32,753 nucleotides of DNA from a virus: the IMG/VR virus record IMGVR_UViG_3300021247_000160, positions 1 through 32,753 of that record; one strand, 5' to 3'. Shown here in pieces: positions 3,171-20,373 of the stretch (the stretch's first letter is position 1; the number at the start of each line of letters is the position of its first letter). Position numbers and translations under genes: made by a program. The notes under the pieces were generated by a model. The model worked only from the letters and a program-made list of their open reading frames with translations, was not told the DNA's origin and did no database searches.

Positions 3171-3613
3171 TAATCTTCACCTCGTTCAGGATAATCCATC
3201 CCGTGCATCGCCAATGCACCACGTTTACGGCTGCTCATTTCAGCGGTTATAGGACCGCCAGCAAGCCAAGCATCACATGTACGGTCGCCAGCACACTTAA
3301 AATCAAACAACTCACAATATCCAAGGTTCGCTGCATCTTGAACTTCTTCTTCATAAGATGCGTCCTCCTCACCCTTTTCGATACCATACTTAATGCACTC
3401 TAGCATACGGGGTGTCTGAATAAACGCAGAGCAATTCTTGCAACGCATTGTCTTAGCTTCGGGAACATCCGTTGCCCACATGTCGGCCTTGGCCGTCCAA
3501 AACTCAGCGTTAGGCTCACCGGGATTAGCGGGGCCATATCCGACATTCTTGAAGGCCCAATTACGAGCCTTCAAGTTTGCCTTAACGTCTTGGGTTTCGA
3601 TAGGGCAATCCAT
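3170..3613 (-). CDS. Cysteine-rich protein of unknown function upstream of portal
   Basis: 147 residues with seven cysteines at about 3, 58, 61, 73, 100, 107 and 113. They include a CxxC pair (RCKNCSAF) and a C-terminal block (GYCELFDFKCAGDRTCDAW) followed by GGPI. The spacing suggests bound metal, either zinc or an Fe-S cluster. I recall similar small Cys-rich proteins beside structural genes in aquatic phages but cannot name a family. Both ends overlap neighbours as TAATG (3613 and 3170), which fixes it inside the packaging/portal unit and makes it very likely a real gene. A role in portal assembly or host redox is only speculation. Confidence 0.75.
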   Translation of the reverse strand: MDCPIETQDVKANLKARNWAFKNVGYGPANPGEPNAEFWTAKADMWATDVPEAKTMRCKNCSAFIQTPRMLECIKYGIEKGEEDASYEEEVQDAANLGYCELFDFKCAGDRTCDAWLAGGPITAEMSSRKRGALAMHGMDYPERGED

Positions 3614-3798
3614 TATTTCTTTTTCATCTTCTTGCTCATCCCCGCTTCAGACAGAGCAATCGCTATAGCCTGTTTGCGCGATTTAGCCAAGGGAGCCTTT
3701 GCAGGGCCTTTAGGATTTACGCCAGCGTGCAACGTGCCGCGCTTAAATTCGCCCATGACCTTAGCTACTTTCATGTCGGCCTTAGTTGGTTTCTTCAT
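3613..3798 (-). CDS. Small basic protein, DUF6496-like
   Basis: 61 residues, strongly basic (MKKPTKADMKVAKVMGEFKR at the start, KKMKKK at the end). A central SRKQAIAIALSEAG string is the hallmark of the DUF6496 family, seen in phages and some bacterial genomes. Function is unknown, and the charge suggests nucleic-acid contact. The start overlaps the upstream gene as ATGA and the stop overlaps the next start as TAATG, so it is embedded in the coupled run leading to the portal. Confidence 0.75.
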   Translation of the reverse strand: MKKPTKADMKVAKVMGEFKRGTLHAGVNPKGPAKAPLAKSRKQAIAIALSEAGMSKKMKKK

Positions 3799-4667: not shown

Positions 4668-4713
4668 AGATATGCTCCCTTTGGCGTCTATAACCTAAAG
4701 TTCGCAGAAAAGC

Positions 4714-4765
4714 AAAAAATGGGGTGGCGGCGTTTCGCTATTACCGGCCCAGCCGCGCACACCCC
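4714..4765 (-). terminator. Intrinsic terminator in front of endoVII
   Basis: On the minus strand, GGGGTG (4765-4760) and GCGGC (4756-4752), separated by a 3-nt bulge, pair with GCCGC (4731-4727) and CACCCC (4726-4721). This gives an 11-bp stem with a 20-nt loop. One A and then six T residues (4719-4714) follow. It lies between a strong promoter and the endoVII start, so it either ends a small RNA or attenuates the operon. Confidence 0.65.
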
Positions 4766-4808
4766 TAGTTCCCGCCGGCAGGGAGAGGGAGAGGAAAACC
4801 TGCCGGGC
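4714..4808 (-). ncRNA. Candidate small RNA or attenuated leader between terL and endoVII
   Basis: Predicted from sequence only. A near-consensus promoter (4842-4815) would start transcription near 4808. The first hairpin is at 4806-4775, with an 8-bp stem CCGGCAGG/CCTGCCGG. Its 16-nt loop UUUUCCUCUCCCUCUC is all pyrimidine and complementary to purine-rich ribosome binding sites. A second hairpin at 4765-4721 followed by six T residues looks like an intrinsic terminator. The product would be about 95 nt. Either it is a stand-alone RNA, or it is a leader in which most transcripts stop before endoVII and the portal operon. The two-hairpin plan with a CCUC-rich loop resembles anti-Shine-Dalgarno small RNAs of alphaproteobacteria. 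That resemblance is inference. Confidence 0.5.
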
Positions 4809-4814
4809 AAACCA

Positions 4815-4842
4815 AATATATCACATCGTTTGTCTATGTCAA
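4815..4842 (-). promoter_or_regulatory. Sigma70-type promoter overlapping the terL stop
   Basis: On the minus strand the -35 is TTGACA (4842-4837, six of six), the spacer is 16 bp, and the -10 is TATATT (4820-4815). The -35 box overlaps the TGA stop of terL (4841-4839). It is the best sigma70 match I found in the window. It points toward endoVII and the portal operon. Confidence 0.65.
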
Positions 4843-6248
4843 ACAATGCCCTTTATATTCCGGCGTAATGCCCCACTCTTGTTGGCCATTGAGTATCCGT
4901 GCATGATCGTCGATATGTCGGTGGCGAGGCATAAGCACAACGCATCCGCCTTATCCGGCGACGGAAGCCCACGCTTCTTCATGCTCTCCTTACTTTCCAC
5001 CTGCATCTTACCCGACGACGTAAAGGTGTAACGCGGTGACGCCAACTCGGCGAACAACTGCTCGTCCTTCGGTATCTTAACGTCGCGGTTCGCCAGCCAC
5101 CCCTTGCACTTAAACCACAATTCGGCGCGTAGGTTGGCGTAAGTCCCTTTCATCGCAGGACTTTCTGCCACGTTGATCCCGCGTGCTGGCAGACCCAGTT
5201 CGCGCAGACGGTCAAGCACACCCGCCCCCAACCCGATACTATCTACCAATATCTCAACGGGTTGCTCGGAAGGTACAAGTGCCTCGAACTCGGCCACGAC
5301 TGCGCCGGTTAGCTGCATCAAGTCCAGACCTTTCCAAGTCTGTATCTCTTCAACAACTGGGCCACGCCGCTTAGCGAGGGCGGAGGCATCCGAACCCATA
5401 CGCGCCACGTCTAGGCCCCACACACTCTTCGTCTGCTTGGCAATCTTGATCTCGCGGTTCATGGCGCTGTCGATCAACTCGACAGGAATGACGGTATCTT
5501 CTTCACGTGGCGGGAAGTTACCAAGAACACGCACATGGTACGCCGGGCTGTCTTCCCCGTACCGTAGCTGCATCTCTCGCACGAACGCATCGGATACGCG
5601 GGGACTATCAAGACAGCTAACGTGAAAGGTTTTCCATTCGCCCTTCAAGCGGTTGTGCGTATCGTAGAATAATCCGCTGTTTCGCGTAGGGTTCCCCAGC
5701 AGCAAGGTCGTCGCATTGTGGCCGGACATAGAACCGGACGCAGCTTCGTACACACTCTCCGGGATACCGGACGCTTCGTCGGCGACGAGCAGCACGTTGT
5801 CGGCGTGGATACCCTGCAACGCTTCCGGCGTTTCTGCCCGGCTCGTTCGAGCGGAGATAAAGGCTTCACTAGCTGCGGCCTTTAACTCGATACGGTCGGC
5901 CTTGACTTCGATCAGCGTCTTGAGAACGTCGGGCAGTTCGTTCACCCATCGCTTCAGTTCCGCGAACATCGCATCGAACAACTGTGCGGATGTCGGCGCA
6001 GTGACAACCACCTTCACCGGATACCGTGTCAAAAAGTAATGCAGCATGGCCCAGCTTGCGGCTGTAGACTTACCGACACCGTGGCCGGAGCGCACGCTGA
6101 TCCTGCGGTTCCCGGAACTAATCGCTTTCAGAAACTCGATTTGCCAAGGGTCTGGTTTGGTTCTTAGAATATCGCGCACGAACCCGACGGGATCATCGCG
6201 GTACTTCTTCAAAAACTCCAGAAAGAAGTTTGGTTCAGACTTCGGCAT
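4839..6248 (-). CDS. terL: Terminase large subunit (packaging ATPase and nuclease)
   Basis: 469 residues. The N-terminal ATPase has a Walker A SGHGVGKS at 54-61, a Walker B LLVADE with Asp157/Glu158, and a coupling motif LLGNPT near 183-188. The C-terminal RNase H-like nuclease has GLDVARMGSD (Asp280), VDSIGLGAG (Asp336) and PDKADAL (Asp432/Asp435). It cuts concatemeric DNA and pumps it through the portal. The ATG at 6248 lies 14 bases inside the end of the upstream recombinase gene, next to a GGGGAG-like site. Length and motif order are normal, and nothing looks broken. Confidence 0.96.
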   Translation of the reverse strand: MPKSEPNFFLEFLKKYRDDPVGFVRDILRTKPDPWQIEFLKAISSGNRRISVRSGHGVGKSTAASWAMLHYFLTRYPVKVVVTAPTSAQLFDAMFAELKRWVNELPDVLKTLIEVKADRIELKAAASEAFISARTSRAETPEALQGIHADNVLLVADEASGIPESVYEAASGSMSGHNATTLLLGNPTRNSGLFYDTHNRLKGEWKTFHVSCLDSPRVSDAFVREMQLRYGEDSPAYHVRVLGNFPPREEDTVIPVELIDSAMNREIKIAKQTKSVWGLDVARMGSDASALAKRRGPVVEEIQTWKGLDLMQLTGAVVAEFEALVPSEQPVEILVDSIGLGAGVLDRLRELGLPARGINVAESPAMKGTYANLRAELWFKCKGWLANRDVKIPKDEQLFAELASPRYTFTSSGKMQVESKESMKKRGLPSPDKADALCLCLATDISTIMHGYSMANKSGALRRNIKGIV

Positions 6249-6915
6249 TCTTATCTCCCCTGATTACACGTGCGATTGTTTGGTGACTAACCGATATACC
6301 ATGACGCTTTGCTACGATAATAGCAATATCGCGGTAGCTATGACCTTTAACGCGTGCGGCTTTCATTGTAATCAACGCGTCCTGCGCGTTTGGTTCTGGA
6401 AGCAGCTTGGCCTTGCGGCCTGTGCCTGACTTCTTAAAGCCGAACGGCACTTTGCCGCCGACGTATCCGCCCTGTGACTTCTTCGCTCTCTTACCGGCGG
6501 TGACACGTTCTCTGATACGGCGGCGCTCCTCGCCGGAGAAGACGGCCATGATCTCTAGCATGAAGCGTCCGTTCGGGTTGGCCTTGTCCATGACATTGCC
6601 GTAGCCGTTGATGATGAGATTAATGTTCGCCGTGTCCCAGTCGGCAATCACGTTTAGTGCGTCTCTCGCATCGCGAAACATACGGTCTAGCTTCGATACG
6701 ATAACAGTATCGCCGGGCCGGAGGAACGCCAGCTTGCAGCCTTCTTCTCGGCGTAGCAGTGGGACGCCGCCGGAGACGCCCCGTTCTTCGTAGATGTGCG
6801 TCAACTCTAAATTATGCGTAAGCGCAATGCCTTGGATTTGGCGCGCTTGATCGTCGAGCGATGTGTTCTCAATCTGGTCTTCAGTCGAGACGCGAGTGTA
6901 TCCATAAACTGCCAA
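6235..6915 (-). CDS. Serine recombinase (resolvase/invertase family)
   Basis: 226 residues starting at TTG (6915), with a gggag ribosome binding site seven bases upstream. The translated start VYGYTRVST is canonical and includes nucleophile Ser10. Residues 1-135 form the resolvase catalytic domain, with RPGDTVIVSKLDRMFRD and the ERRRIRERVTAGKRAKK helix E region. After a GGKVPFGF linker, residues about 185-222 form a helix-turn-helix (GHSYRDIAIIVAKRHGISVSHQTIARVIRG). It is the size of small resolvases, not large integrases, so it is more likely to act on multimers or an invertible site than to integrate the genome. It overlaps terL by 14 bp and should be co-transcribed. No inversion gene or clear res site was found nearby. 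Confidence 0.93.
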   Translation of the reverse strand: MAVYGYTRVSTEDQIENTSLDDQARQIQGIALTHNLELTHIYEERGVSGGVPLLRREEGCKLAFLRPGDTVIVSKLDRMFRDARDALNVIADWDTANINLIINGYGNVMDKANPNGRFMLEIMAVFSGEERRRIRERVTAGKRAKKSQGGYVGGKVPFGFKKSGTGRKAKLLPEPNAQDALITMKAARVKGHSYRDIAIIVAKRHGISVSHQTIARVIRGDKNAEV

Positions 6916-7252: not shown

Positions 7253-7268
7253 CCGGCACATCGTGCCT
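7253..7268. promoter_or_regulatory. Operator-like palindrome, copy 1
   Basis: The site ccGGCACATCGTGCCt has 5-bp arms GGCAC/GTGCC. A second copy with the same flanks lies 101 bp downstream, before the first early gene. Symmetry, repetition and position suggest a repressor or activator site. The 59-residue XRE protein of this operon is the obvious candidate ligand. Confidence 0.5.
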
Positions 7269-7353: not shown

Positions 7354-7369
7354 CCGGCACATTGTGCCT
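7354..7369. promoter_or_regulatory. Operator-like palindrome, copy 2
   Basis: The site ccGGCACATTGTGCCt has perfect 6-bp arms GGCACA/TGTGCC around one T. A weak promoter (TTTACA at 7321, TATTGA about 17 bp later) would start near 7356, inside this palindrome. Occupancy would then block the early operon. Confidence 0.5.
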
Positions 7370-7404
7370 ACTACCAACGTGTCCACACAGAGAGGGATTA
7401 CGAA

Positions 7405-7557
7405 ATGGCAAATGTAAGCAACCAAGGTTACGAGATAGAAAAGACTGCTGGCCGTAAGTTTTACATCACCAGCAAGAAGTACGGAAATATCTTTGGGCCG
7501 TTTACCCGCAAGTCGTGGGCTATAGATTACGCAAAGCGGATTGACGCCGCAGCTTAA
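7405..7557 (+). CDS. Small protein, first gene of the early-type operon
   Basis: 50 residues (MANVSNQGYEIEKTAGRKFY at the start). ATG 7405 follows a strong GAGAGGGA site (7390-7397) seven bases upstream. The body is basic and aromatic (YITSKKYGNIFGPFTRKSWA), with a C-terminal short helix. It resembles small phage proteins with a single beta-sheet domain, but I do not recognise a family. As the promoter-proximal gene it may be a host takeover protein; that is inference from position only. Confidence 0.6.
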   Translation: MANVSNQGYEIEKTAGRKFYITSKKYGNIFGPFTRKSWAIDYAKRIDAAA

Positions 7558-7577
7558 CAACGAAAGAGGGAATGACA

Positions 7578-7691
7578 ATGGCTTTTGATTTATCACAATA
7601 TGTACCGTTTAACGTATTCGCATTTATATGGTTAGTTAGTATGCTGGCAGGTCTATCCTATGCTTGCCGCAATGATAATAAGGGAGAGTAA
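7578..7691 (+). CDS. Single-span membrane microprotein
   Basis: 37 residues from ATG 7578, with an aaagaggg site about seven bases upstream. An in-frame ATG at 7572 is too close to that site. Residues 11-30 (FNVFAFIWLVSMLAGLSYAC) are a clear transmembrane helix, with a short charged tail RNDNKGE. No family was recognised. It could modify the host envelope early in infection. Good ribosome binding sites before it and before its downstream neighbour support it as real. Confidence 0.55.
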   Translation: MAFDLSQYVPFNVFAFIWLVSMLAGLSYACRNDNKGE

Positions 7692-7693
7692 TC

Positions 7694-7831
7694 ATGATTA
7701 AACCGCAACAAGCCGCGCCGTTAGGCCGCAAGCACCGGGTATCCTCGGACAATGCTTGGCCCTTGCGAAACTCACAGGGCCTCACCTTCGCAGAAGCCAA
7801 GCGCCTTAGAGAGCAGGAGACAAGCAAATGA
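7694..7831 (+). CDS. Small protein of unknown function
   Basis: 45 residues (MIKPQQAAPLGRKHRVSS at the start, FAEAKRLREQETSK at the end), starting three bases after the preceding stop with a gggag ribosome binding site. It ends in an ATGA overlap with the methyltransferase start. Basic and hydrophilic, with no recognisable domain. The overlap and spacing are the support. Confidence 0.55.
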   Translation: MIKPQQAAPLGRKHRVSSDNAWPLRNSQGLTFAEAKRLREQETSK

Positions 7832-8250
7832 GCGTGCACTTCTCAAGCGCGACCGACCTATGGGCGACGCCGCAAGAATTCTTCGACAAGCAGAACGCAA
7901 TTTACGGCTTTACGCTGGATGTTTGCGCGACCGCTGACAACGCCAAATGCGCCCGATACTTCACCGAAGCGGACAACGGCCTAGCGCAGCCTTGGCAGGG
8001 CGTTTGTTGGATGAACCCGCCCTATGGTCGCACAATCGGCCAATGGATGAAGAAAGCATACGAGAGCAGCCTAGCAGGCGCGACAGTTGTTTGCCTTGTT
8101 CCGGCGCGCACTGATACGCGCTGGTGGCACGATTATGCCATGAAAGGCCAAATCGAATTTATCCGTGGACGTCTTAAGTTTGGCAGCGCCAAGAACAGTG
8201 CGCCCTTCCCGTCCGCATTAGTTATATTTAACAAAGGGCAAAGCAAATGA
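7828..8250 (+). CDS. Phage DNA N6-adenine methyltransferase
   Basis: 140 residues of the phage Dam-like family. The start FSSATDLWATPQEFFDKQNA is the family N-terminus. FTLDVCATADNAKCARYF follows, then the catalytic NPPY at 63-66 (in VCWMNPPYGR), and a C-terminal FPSALVIF. It would transfer methyl from S-adenosylmethionine to adenine in phage DNA, probably to protect it from restriction or to mark it for regulation. Target specificity cannot be read here. The start overlaps the previous stop as ATGA. It is slightly short, but the motifs are intact. Confidence 0.9.
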   Translation: MSVHFSSATDLWATPQEFFDKQNAIYGFTLDVCATADNAKCARYFTEADNGLAQPWQGVCWMNPPYGRTIGQWMKKAYESSLAGATVVCLVPARTDTRWWHDYAMKGQIEFIRGRLKFGSAKNSAPFPSALVIFNKGQSK

Positions 8251-9020: not shown

Positions 9021-9554
9021 ATGGCCGGACATATTAAACGACGCACGATTGCGTCAAACTTAGACAAGGTTGGTGAGACTGTTTTGCTGGAGAAGATTGC
9101 ATCTGGCCTAACAATGGCTGGCCTTGCTCGTGAACTGAACATCAGCAACCTCTCGCTCTATCATTGGATACGCAAAGACCCAGACAGGGAGGAGCGGTTC
9201 CGGCAGGCTCGGACAATCGCAGCCGACCAATGGGCGGATGAGTGCCTCGACATTGCCGACGCCTCGGACAGCGTATCGGCTAACGCGGACAGGCTCAAGA
9301 TCGAAACGCGCAAATGGTTGGCGGGGGTTACTGCTCCGGATAAGTTCCAAGCCAAGCCAGCCGCAGCGGTCCAAGTCAACGTGAACCAACTCCATCTTGA
9401 TGCACTGCGCCAGCTAAACTTGGCGTCGTCAAATCCTCATGACCAAATCGAGCATATCGAGGAAGAAGTCACCATAGACATCACGCCCCCAAAGCAAGTC
9501 GGCTCACATAACCTCGATGCAGACGACTTGCCGGGTGTGTTTGACGACGATTAA
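9021..9554 (+). CDS. Terminase small subunit-like protein
   Basis: 177 residues. An N-terminal HTH (about 25-55, LTMAGLARELNISNLSLYHW then IRKDPDREERFRQARTIAAD) is followed by ADECLDIAD and RLKIETRKWLAGVTAPDKF. This arrangement is typical of Sf6-type small terminases, which recognise the packaging site and recruit TerL. The C-terminus is acidic (EEEVTIDIT, VFDDD). An aaagga ribosome binding site precedes the ATG. It is on the opposite strand and about 2.8 kb from terL, which is unusual but not unknown. A sequence-specific regulator is an alternative. Confidence 0.72.
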   Translation: MAGHIKRRTIASNLDKVGETVLLEKIASGLTMAGLARELNISNLSLYHWIRKDPDREERFRQARTIAADQWADECLDIADASDSVSANADRLKIETRKWLAGVTAPDKFQAKPAAAVQVNVNQLHLDALRQLNLASSNPHDQIEHIEEEVTIDITPPKQVGSHNLDADDLPGVFDDD

Positions 9555-13181: not shown

Positions 13182-13402
13182 TAGTGCAACTCCCTCTTTT
13201 CAATTTGGTCACGTCTCTGCATCAATATGTCTACTGCTGCGTCGATGGCGAAGAGCGCAAAGTCCGGTTCAGCATCGACTAACAATGTGTAGCCGGGTGT
13301 CGTCATTATTACACCGCGCTCCAACTCTGCTTCAAATCCGATTACGAATACTGGAACGAACTCAACCGTTTGTTCTTCGTCGGTCCATTTTACTGTATCC
13401 AT
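13181..13402 (-). CDS. Small protein of unknown function
   Basis: 73 residues (MDTVKWTDEEQTVEFVPVFV at the start), acidic, with a beta-rich first half and a helical end (FAIDAAVDILMQRRDQIEK). The ATG at 13402 was preferred over an adjacent GTG at 13405. The stop overlaps the primase start as TAATG, so it belongs to the primase operon. No family recognised. Confidence 0.6.
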   Translation of the reverse strand: MDTVKWTDEEQTVEFVPVFVIGFEAELERGVIMTTPGYTLLVDAEPDFALFAIDAAVDILMQRRDQIEKRELH

Positions 13403-14545: not shown

Positions 14546-14578
14546 AATCTCCCTCATTTGTTTGTCGCCTCTCTTGGG

Positions 14579-14643: not shown

Positions 14644-14690
14644 GCTATAGGGAAAGCAAACGTGACACCGACGAAAAAGAGGGAACGAGT

Positions 14691-19895: not shown

Positions 19896-20373
19896 CGTCT
19901 TCCCTCTCGGCGGCGTAGCAAGCGATAAGCGCAGCTTCAGCCCGGCCGTCATCCTTTTTCCGTGCGAAGAGATGGGCGTAATCCGGGAACAACTCTTGTG
20001 CCCGCTGACGACTGCCGTCCTTTCCTCCGAACGTGCGCATAGACTTAATCCAAGTCGCAGGCGGTATCAACTCAAAAGATATAGACAGGCCAGCAAGGAC
20101 ACCTTCGACGATACCGGCAGCACGGCCGAAGCTGAACATCGACGACACACCTTGGCCCGGCATGGCGTGAACTTTCTCGATGATGGCTTTGATTTCGCCG
20201 GTCATGTGCGGTCGCAGGCTATCAGCCAGCATATGCGCGTCCACCTGATTGACGACACGCGGCCCGCGTTTAACTTTAAGAGTAGGCATGTCGATGATGA
20301 CAAGTTCTCGGCTATCCTTATCCAGAATAGCAATAGCCCCGAACGCGCCGGGATCAATGCCCATGAACTTCAT
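19846..20373 (-). CDS. RuvC-like Holliday-junction resolvase
   Basis: 175 residues with an RNase H-like core: MGIDPGAFGAIAI (Asp7), AIIEKVHAMPGQGVSSMFSF (Glu66), PPATWIK, and KKDDGRAEAALIA (Asp141/Asp142, Glu146). This matches phage RuvC-like crossover-junction nucleases, which cut four-way junctions and branched DNA. The ribosome binding site is weak, but the gene starts 18 bases after a small coupled gene. Together with endonuclease VII it gives the phage two unrelated junction resolvases. Confidence 0.9.
   Translation of the reverse strand: MKFMGIDPGAFGAIAILDKDSRELVIIDMPTLKVKRGPRVVNQVDAHMLADSLRPHMTGEIKAIIEKVHAMPGQGVSSMFSFGRAAGIVEGVLAGLSISFELIPPATWIKSMRTFGGKDGSRQRAQELFPDYAHLFARKKDDGRAEAALIACYAAEREDDGPSIRLPKGRRRLSL

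Follow-up and report, generated by a model that had tools for sequence, protein, structure and literature searches.

We analysed a stretch of 32,753 bases from the virus record IMGVR_UViG_3300021247_000160 (the window), in which a predicted phage small RNA of ~95 nt lies on the minus strand (~4808-4714), directly after the terminase gene terL. The gene following the element encodes endonuclease VII (endoVII), with the portal gene further on, and directly upstream of terL a short serine recombinase of the resolvase/invertase type is encoded on the minus strand (6235-6915). Early genes include three small ORFs of 50, 37 and 45 aa on the plus strand (7405-7831), each with a GAGGGA- or AGGGAGA-type ribosome site and none with a Pfam match. 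They are followed by a Dam-type DNA adenine methyltransferase gene (7828-8250). Two exact copies of a palindrome-like GGCACATNGTGCC (7255-7267 and 7356-7368) flank AT-rich sequence before the first early gene and are probably operators of a phage repressor. An Sf6-type terminase small subunit is encoded at 9021-9554 on the plus strand, opposite to terL and ~3 kb away from it. The coordinates of the element and of its proposed targets are collected in Table 1.

Table 1. Features of the predicted small RNA, its surroundings and its proposed targets in the window
Feature	Position	Strand	Evidence
Sigma70-type promoter, TTGACA-16-TATATT	4815..4842	minus	sequence and conservation in relatives
Predicted small RNA, ~95 nt	4714..4808	minus	covariance model R1, covariation, G-U versus A-C strand test
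Hairpin P1, CCGGCAGG / CCUGCCGG	4775..4806	minus	compensatory changes in relatives
Putative anti-SD loop, UUUUCCUCUCCCUCUC	4783..4798	minus	sequence; loop composition in 63 distinct relatives
3' domain, three-way junction, outer stem GGGGUG / CACCCC	4721..4765	minus	alignment, covariation
T6 of intrinsic terminator	4714..4719	minus	sequence; T-run retained in relatives
Promoter-like TTGCTT-17-TATAGA for endoVII unit	4687..4715	minus	sequence; kept in relatives displayed
Proposed target GAGAGGGA, first early gene (7405, 50 aa)	7390..7397	plus	complementarity
Proposed target AGAGGGA, before 37-aa ORF at 7578	7565..7571	plus	complementarity
Proposed target AGGGAGAG, before 45-aa ORF at 7694	7681..7688	plus	complementarity
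Proposed target AGAGGGAG, primase/helicase gene	13190..13197	minus	complementarity
Proposed target GAGGGAGA, HTH gene, 8-base match just upstream of start 14545	14548..14555	minus	complementarity
Proposed target AGAGGGA, PolA gene	14678..14684	plus	complementarity
Proposed target GAGAGGGA, SNF2 helicase gene	19901..19908	minus	complementarity

The putative promoter is close to consensus and consists of TTGACA (4842-4837), which overlaps the terL stop, and TATATT (4820-4815), separated by a 16-bp spacer. It is followed by hairpin P1, whose arms CCGGCAGG (4806-4799) and CCTGCCGG (4782-4775) enclose a 16-nt loop of C and U only, TTTTCCTCTCCCTCTC (4798-4783), and then by a G+C-rich domain (GGGGTG...CACCCC) and T6, all on the minus strand. 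An initial annotation, made from the window alone, had described this arrangement of a promoter with its -35 on the terL stop, a hairpin with a C/U loop right behind it, and T6 within ~95 nt, and we find each of these parts in the sequence. It had drawn the 3' domain as a simple 11-bp bulged stem; covariation instead favours a three-way junction with GGGGUG-U-GCG / CGC-CACCCC, a local GGC/GCC hairpin, and a conserved GGUAAUAGCG. The single-sequence fold of the element (-44.4 kcal/mol) is unremarkable in the comparison with shuffled sequence that had been suggested as a check (z = -1.0), and, being no more stable than shuffled sequence, proves nothing on its own.

We therefore turn to the related phages for evidence of structure. 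We fetched the 80 viral contigs with the closest terminases, and in the contigs read among these the element or a variant of it lies directly after terL; in close terL relatives (~88% identity or more) it follows immediately. A sequence-pattern scan returned 82 stretches, which correspond to 76 unique segments; terL lies immediately upstream in 72 of the 76, two of the others being cut by the contig start and two being chance matches. A covariance model built from 30 sequences matched 90 of 97 loci, with one strong match apiece in those whole records that contain one. In the window, covariance model R1 matches 4817-4713 with 99.4 bits. Across 63 distinct sequences, two-sided compensatory changes are found in 17 of 25 base pairs, a number that none of 500 shuffles reached, and 98.8% of cells are paired, a signal that is destroyed when the pairing partners are slid. 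P1 shows compensatory changes in 9 of its 10 modelled pairs, with 99.8% of cells paired. The alignment used here was fitted to the structure, but an unfitted MAFFT alignment already gives two-sided changes in 11 of 22 pairs. The paired changes in both stems that the initial annotation had called for are thus present, and the stem loss in homologous phages that it had named as a refutation did not occur in the close group. A chance hairpin is ruled out by this covariation, despite the ordinary fold energy. Tolerated mismatches comprise 53 G-U and 2 A-C pairs, which indicates that selection acts on the minus-strand RNA and not on the DNA or the opposite strand; a DNA-level inverted repeat or cruciform is ruled out by the same ratio. 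The loops of the 63 distinct relatives contain 540 U, 489 C and only 4 G.

By sequence comparison, the predicted RNA is carried right after the terminase gene by a large group of uncultured aquatic phages, and it falls into several sub-groups. In relatives, its predicted length reaches ~150 nt. Phages with terL ~88-91% identical can have a very different RNA sequence in the same place, but its layout is shared, with promoter-like sequence at the terL stop followed by two or three hairpins and then a terminator. One or more of these hairpins carry C/U loops, for example UUUUCCUCCUCUCCUU or UGUCUCCUUUCC. The model of type I, the sub-group of the window, recovered 11 of these divergent elements, some of them weakly, with no other match in 304 kb, and type II stems show compensatory changes in 5 of 38 pairs. 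Where terL is ~63% identical or less, we found no element, and genes or other sequence directly follow terL; such phages include Sinorhizobium phage phiM5 and several spring-water phages. The RNA is thus a feature of one clade, which rules it out as a property of all related terminase loci, and packaging in general does not require it. One exception among the distant relatives may be L302, where a CTCCTCCTCG-containing stretch and a G+C-rich hairpin follow terL (~3595-3760); this is possibly a distant cousin of the RNA, and its fold contains no clear C/U loop. The gap after terL in Octadecabacter DB virus 2 folds no better than shuffled sequence and was rejected. A BLAST search of the element against 50,697 phage records returned nothing relevant, and a terL search of 84,980 genomes returned one gammaproteobacterial bin, which, as a 63% terL relative without the element, is not informative for the host. 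The hosts of cultured phages with related structural proteins include Alphaproteobacteria.

We compared the predicted RNA to known regulators with anti-Shine-Dalgarno (anti-SD) motifs. In Sinorhizobium meliloti, the ar14-family RNA NfeR1 silences mRNA through anti-SD motifs that cover the ribosome site (PMC10746234). Like the phage RNA, members of the ar14 family (RF02344) are ~100 nt long, present anti-SD motifs unpaired in the loops of hairpins, and have a terminator hairpin. NfeR1, however, is chromosomal and has three hairpins with identical CCUCCUCCC motifs, whereas the window RNA has one anti-SD loop lacking CCUCCUCCC, a three-way-junction terminator domain, a phage location and apparent phage targets. 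The CCUCCUCCC motif of ar14 and cuckoo loops occurs in none of the 19 type I loop types and is absent from the window, and type I elements have one anti-SD hairpin plus the terminator domain in place of three hairpins each bearing the motif; in some other types the number of C/U loops is two or three. The window has no match to any Rfam family at gathering score or at E<=2, ar14 (gathering score 58.8 bits) included. Among the relatives, L080 (type IV) scores 25.2 bits and L190 14.5 bits against ar14. The best Rfam match of L080 is ar7 (RF02342), at 29.5 bits with the full model (E 1.5e-4 in a 151-base search); this is half of the gathering score of 60 bits, and the window RNA has no match there. 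The cuckoo RNAs CcsR1-4 of Rhodobacter sphaeroides (RF02791) likewise have hairpins with C/U-rich anti-SD loops, and L080 matches this family weakly (15.6 bits, E 0.11). CcsR RNAs arise by RNase E processing of a transcript that also encodes a DUF1127 protein (PMC10253847), whereas the window RNA appears as a single unit with its own promoter, between terL and endonuclease VII. L080 also scores weakly against mmgR. These low scores against ar7, ar14, mmgR and CcsR1 support a likeness of design. The analogy to cuckoo and ar14 RNAs drawn in the initial annotation thus holds for the mode of action; we do not file the window RNA as a member, because it has neither a family match nor CCUCCUCCC. Phage-encoded small RNAs acting on phage or host mRNAs have been described, among them lambda OOP, PreS and VpdS (PMC12197685). 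Unlike the window RNA, OOP is antisense to cII in cis, PreS targets host dnaN, and VpdS works with Hfq. In the open-licence papers searched, we found neither a report of the present RNA nor a phage regulatory RNA with one anti-SD loop directed against the shared SD type of many early genes.

What could the C/U loop pair with? Gene starts were taken from a simple script. GAGAGGGA occurs exactly twice in the window outside the loop's own complement, at +7390-7397 and -19908-19901. Both are ribosome sites, those of the first early gene and of the SNF2 gene, as initially annotated, and the shorter matches proposed at PolA, the HTH gene and the recombinase are also present. Requiring at least 7 nt of complementarity to the loop core CUCUCCCUCUC, we found 10 sites in the window, 7 of them at early-gene starts as compared with 2.6 for permuted loops; 8 of 300 permuted C/U cores reached 7 such sites. 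The seven comprise the early genes at 7405, 7578 and 7694, PolA, SNF2, primase/helicase, and a site within the HTH gene. No structural gene of the window is in this list, and weaker complementarity is seen at the recombinase, terL and endoVII. Loop pairing is stronger at early than at late genes in most genomes. Within a single genome, a random loop of C and U frequently fits the early sites almost equally well, so that single-genome pairing shows only that the loop is an anti-SD sequence; permutation tests of loop specificity in single genomes are mostly not significant. Significance was reached by the core-based test (in the window and one relative), by the pooled test and by cross-group tests, and specificity consequently rests on the pooled and between-group comparisons. 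The unpaired loop is complementary to SD sites beyond chance, with moderate significance.

The between-group comparison makes use of the different loops of the sub-groups. GAGGGA occurs at gene starts in 28 of 62 instances in type I genomes versus 6 of 50 in others, and AGGAGA in 40 of 121 instances in type II/III genomes versus 4 of 57 in type I. Complements of the type I loop are enriched at starts in type I genomes (31 sites versus 15.2 for permuted loops; 7/200) but not in other genomes (139/200). Conversely, type II/III genomes show an excess of start sites matching type III loops (37 sites; 7/200 and 12/200), and type I genomes show a deficit (6 sites versus ~20 for permuted loops). In duplex energies, the loop-by-genome interaction is -2.37 kcal/mol for early genes, reached by 30 of 1000 random loop pairs, versus -0.11 kcal/mol for late genes (368/1000). 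The terminase small subunit gene (9021-9554) was counted as early in the early-versus-late and duplex-energy tests; it carries no signal, and its inclusion thus weakens rather than makes the early-gene result. As judged from these sequences, a change of loop type between sub-groups goes along with a change of early ribosome-site type. Ribosome sites were kept fixed in the permutations, which therefore control for genome relatedness only in part, and because the genomes are related, few independent switches lie behind the between-group tests. A host-driven change in SD usage could also have moved loop and ribosome sites together.

It is somewhat probable that the element is an anti-SD RNA acting in trans, by which the phage reduces translation of its own early and replication genes collectively. 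Here, an RNA of ~95 nt would be transcribed from a sigma70-type promoter of its own, placed where terL ends, and stopped by its own terminator, and P1 would present the C/U-rich loop to GAGGGA-type Shine-Dalgarno sites. These sites are common to the small early genes, primase, PolA, SNF2 helicase and the HTH regulator and are not those of structural genes. Pairing would block 30S binding and thereby reduce translation of the early genes together, and the simplest purpose might be to tone down or shut off the early programme without interrupting translation of structural genes. We infer transcription, pairing in the cell, repression and timing from sequence. The structure, the promoter and terminator signals, and the co-variation of loop and SD type together support the proposal of the initial annotation that a phage RNA tunes early-gene translation by an anti-SD loop. 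A bolder version, to which we give slightly less than an even chance, is that this one small RNA acts as a master translational switch, whose loop co-evolves across sub-groups with a private SD dialect of early and replication genes that is absent from late genes. If so, the phage would control an entire class of genes by means of an SD variant that they share and a single RNA directed against it. This would be a simple and portable form of control; the only descriptions of it that we found concern host RNAs whose targets are scattered and phage RNAs with one target each. Whether phage SD variants carry regulatory information rather than only strength would also become testable. The covariance model itself represents a previously undescribed RNA family present in many aquatic phage contigs.

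The RNA could alternatively act mainly on host mRNAs, lowering host translation or competing for the targets of host anti-SD RNAs. As anti-SD sequences, C/U loops are generic, and the resemblance of L080 to the host regulators ar7, ar14, mmgR and CcsR1, at low scores, is compatible with such a role. From sub-group to sub-group, however, the loop tracks the SD type that the phage's early genes themselves use, and the type I core lacks the CCUCCU of a canonical anti-SD and would fit canonical AGGAGG sites more poorly, so that we regard a main action on the host as unlikely.

In 41 of the 47 distinct upstream sequences, the -35 and -10 elements differ from the 12-base consensus at no more than one position, and conserved signals thus provide the element with a putative promoter and terminator of its own, as for a stand-alone RNA gene. 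The initial annotation had considered a cis-acting leader or attenuator, in which this promoter drives the endoVII-portal unit and the 3' domain serves as a regulated terminator. The element does lie directly upstream of endoVII in the same orientation, and it has an unusually elaborate, conserved terminator domain. However, another promoter-like sequence, TTGCTT-17-TATAGA, is conserved at and after the T-run, which it overlaps; it could start the endoVII unit independently and favours a free RNA. Moreover, an attenuator gives the C/U loop no role, and in relatives a gene other than endoVII can follow the element (L260). We thus consider attenuation improbable.

GGUAAUAGCG (4745-4736, minus strand) is mostly unpaired and contains UAAUAGCG, invariant in all 30 type I sequences aligned; it is not accounted for by SD pairing and is possibly a protein-binding or tertiary-contact motif. 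The motif is absent from the sequences of other sub-groups displayed. That protein binding by the 3' domain is the chief function of the RNA, for example in packaging or polymerase binding, with the loop secondary, would fit the invariant UAAUAGCG and the position next to terL but is very unlikely, since sub-groups with 90% identical terL lack the motif and retain C/U loops, and distant terL relatives lack the whole element. Most type I relatives contain a variable extra hairpin between UAAUAGCGA and CGCCGCC, which is missing in the window; in L136 (28-181), this hairpin appears to be tandemly duplicated.
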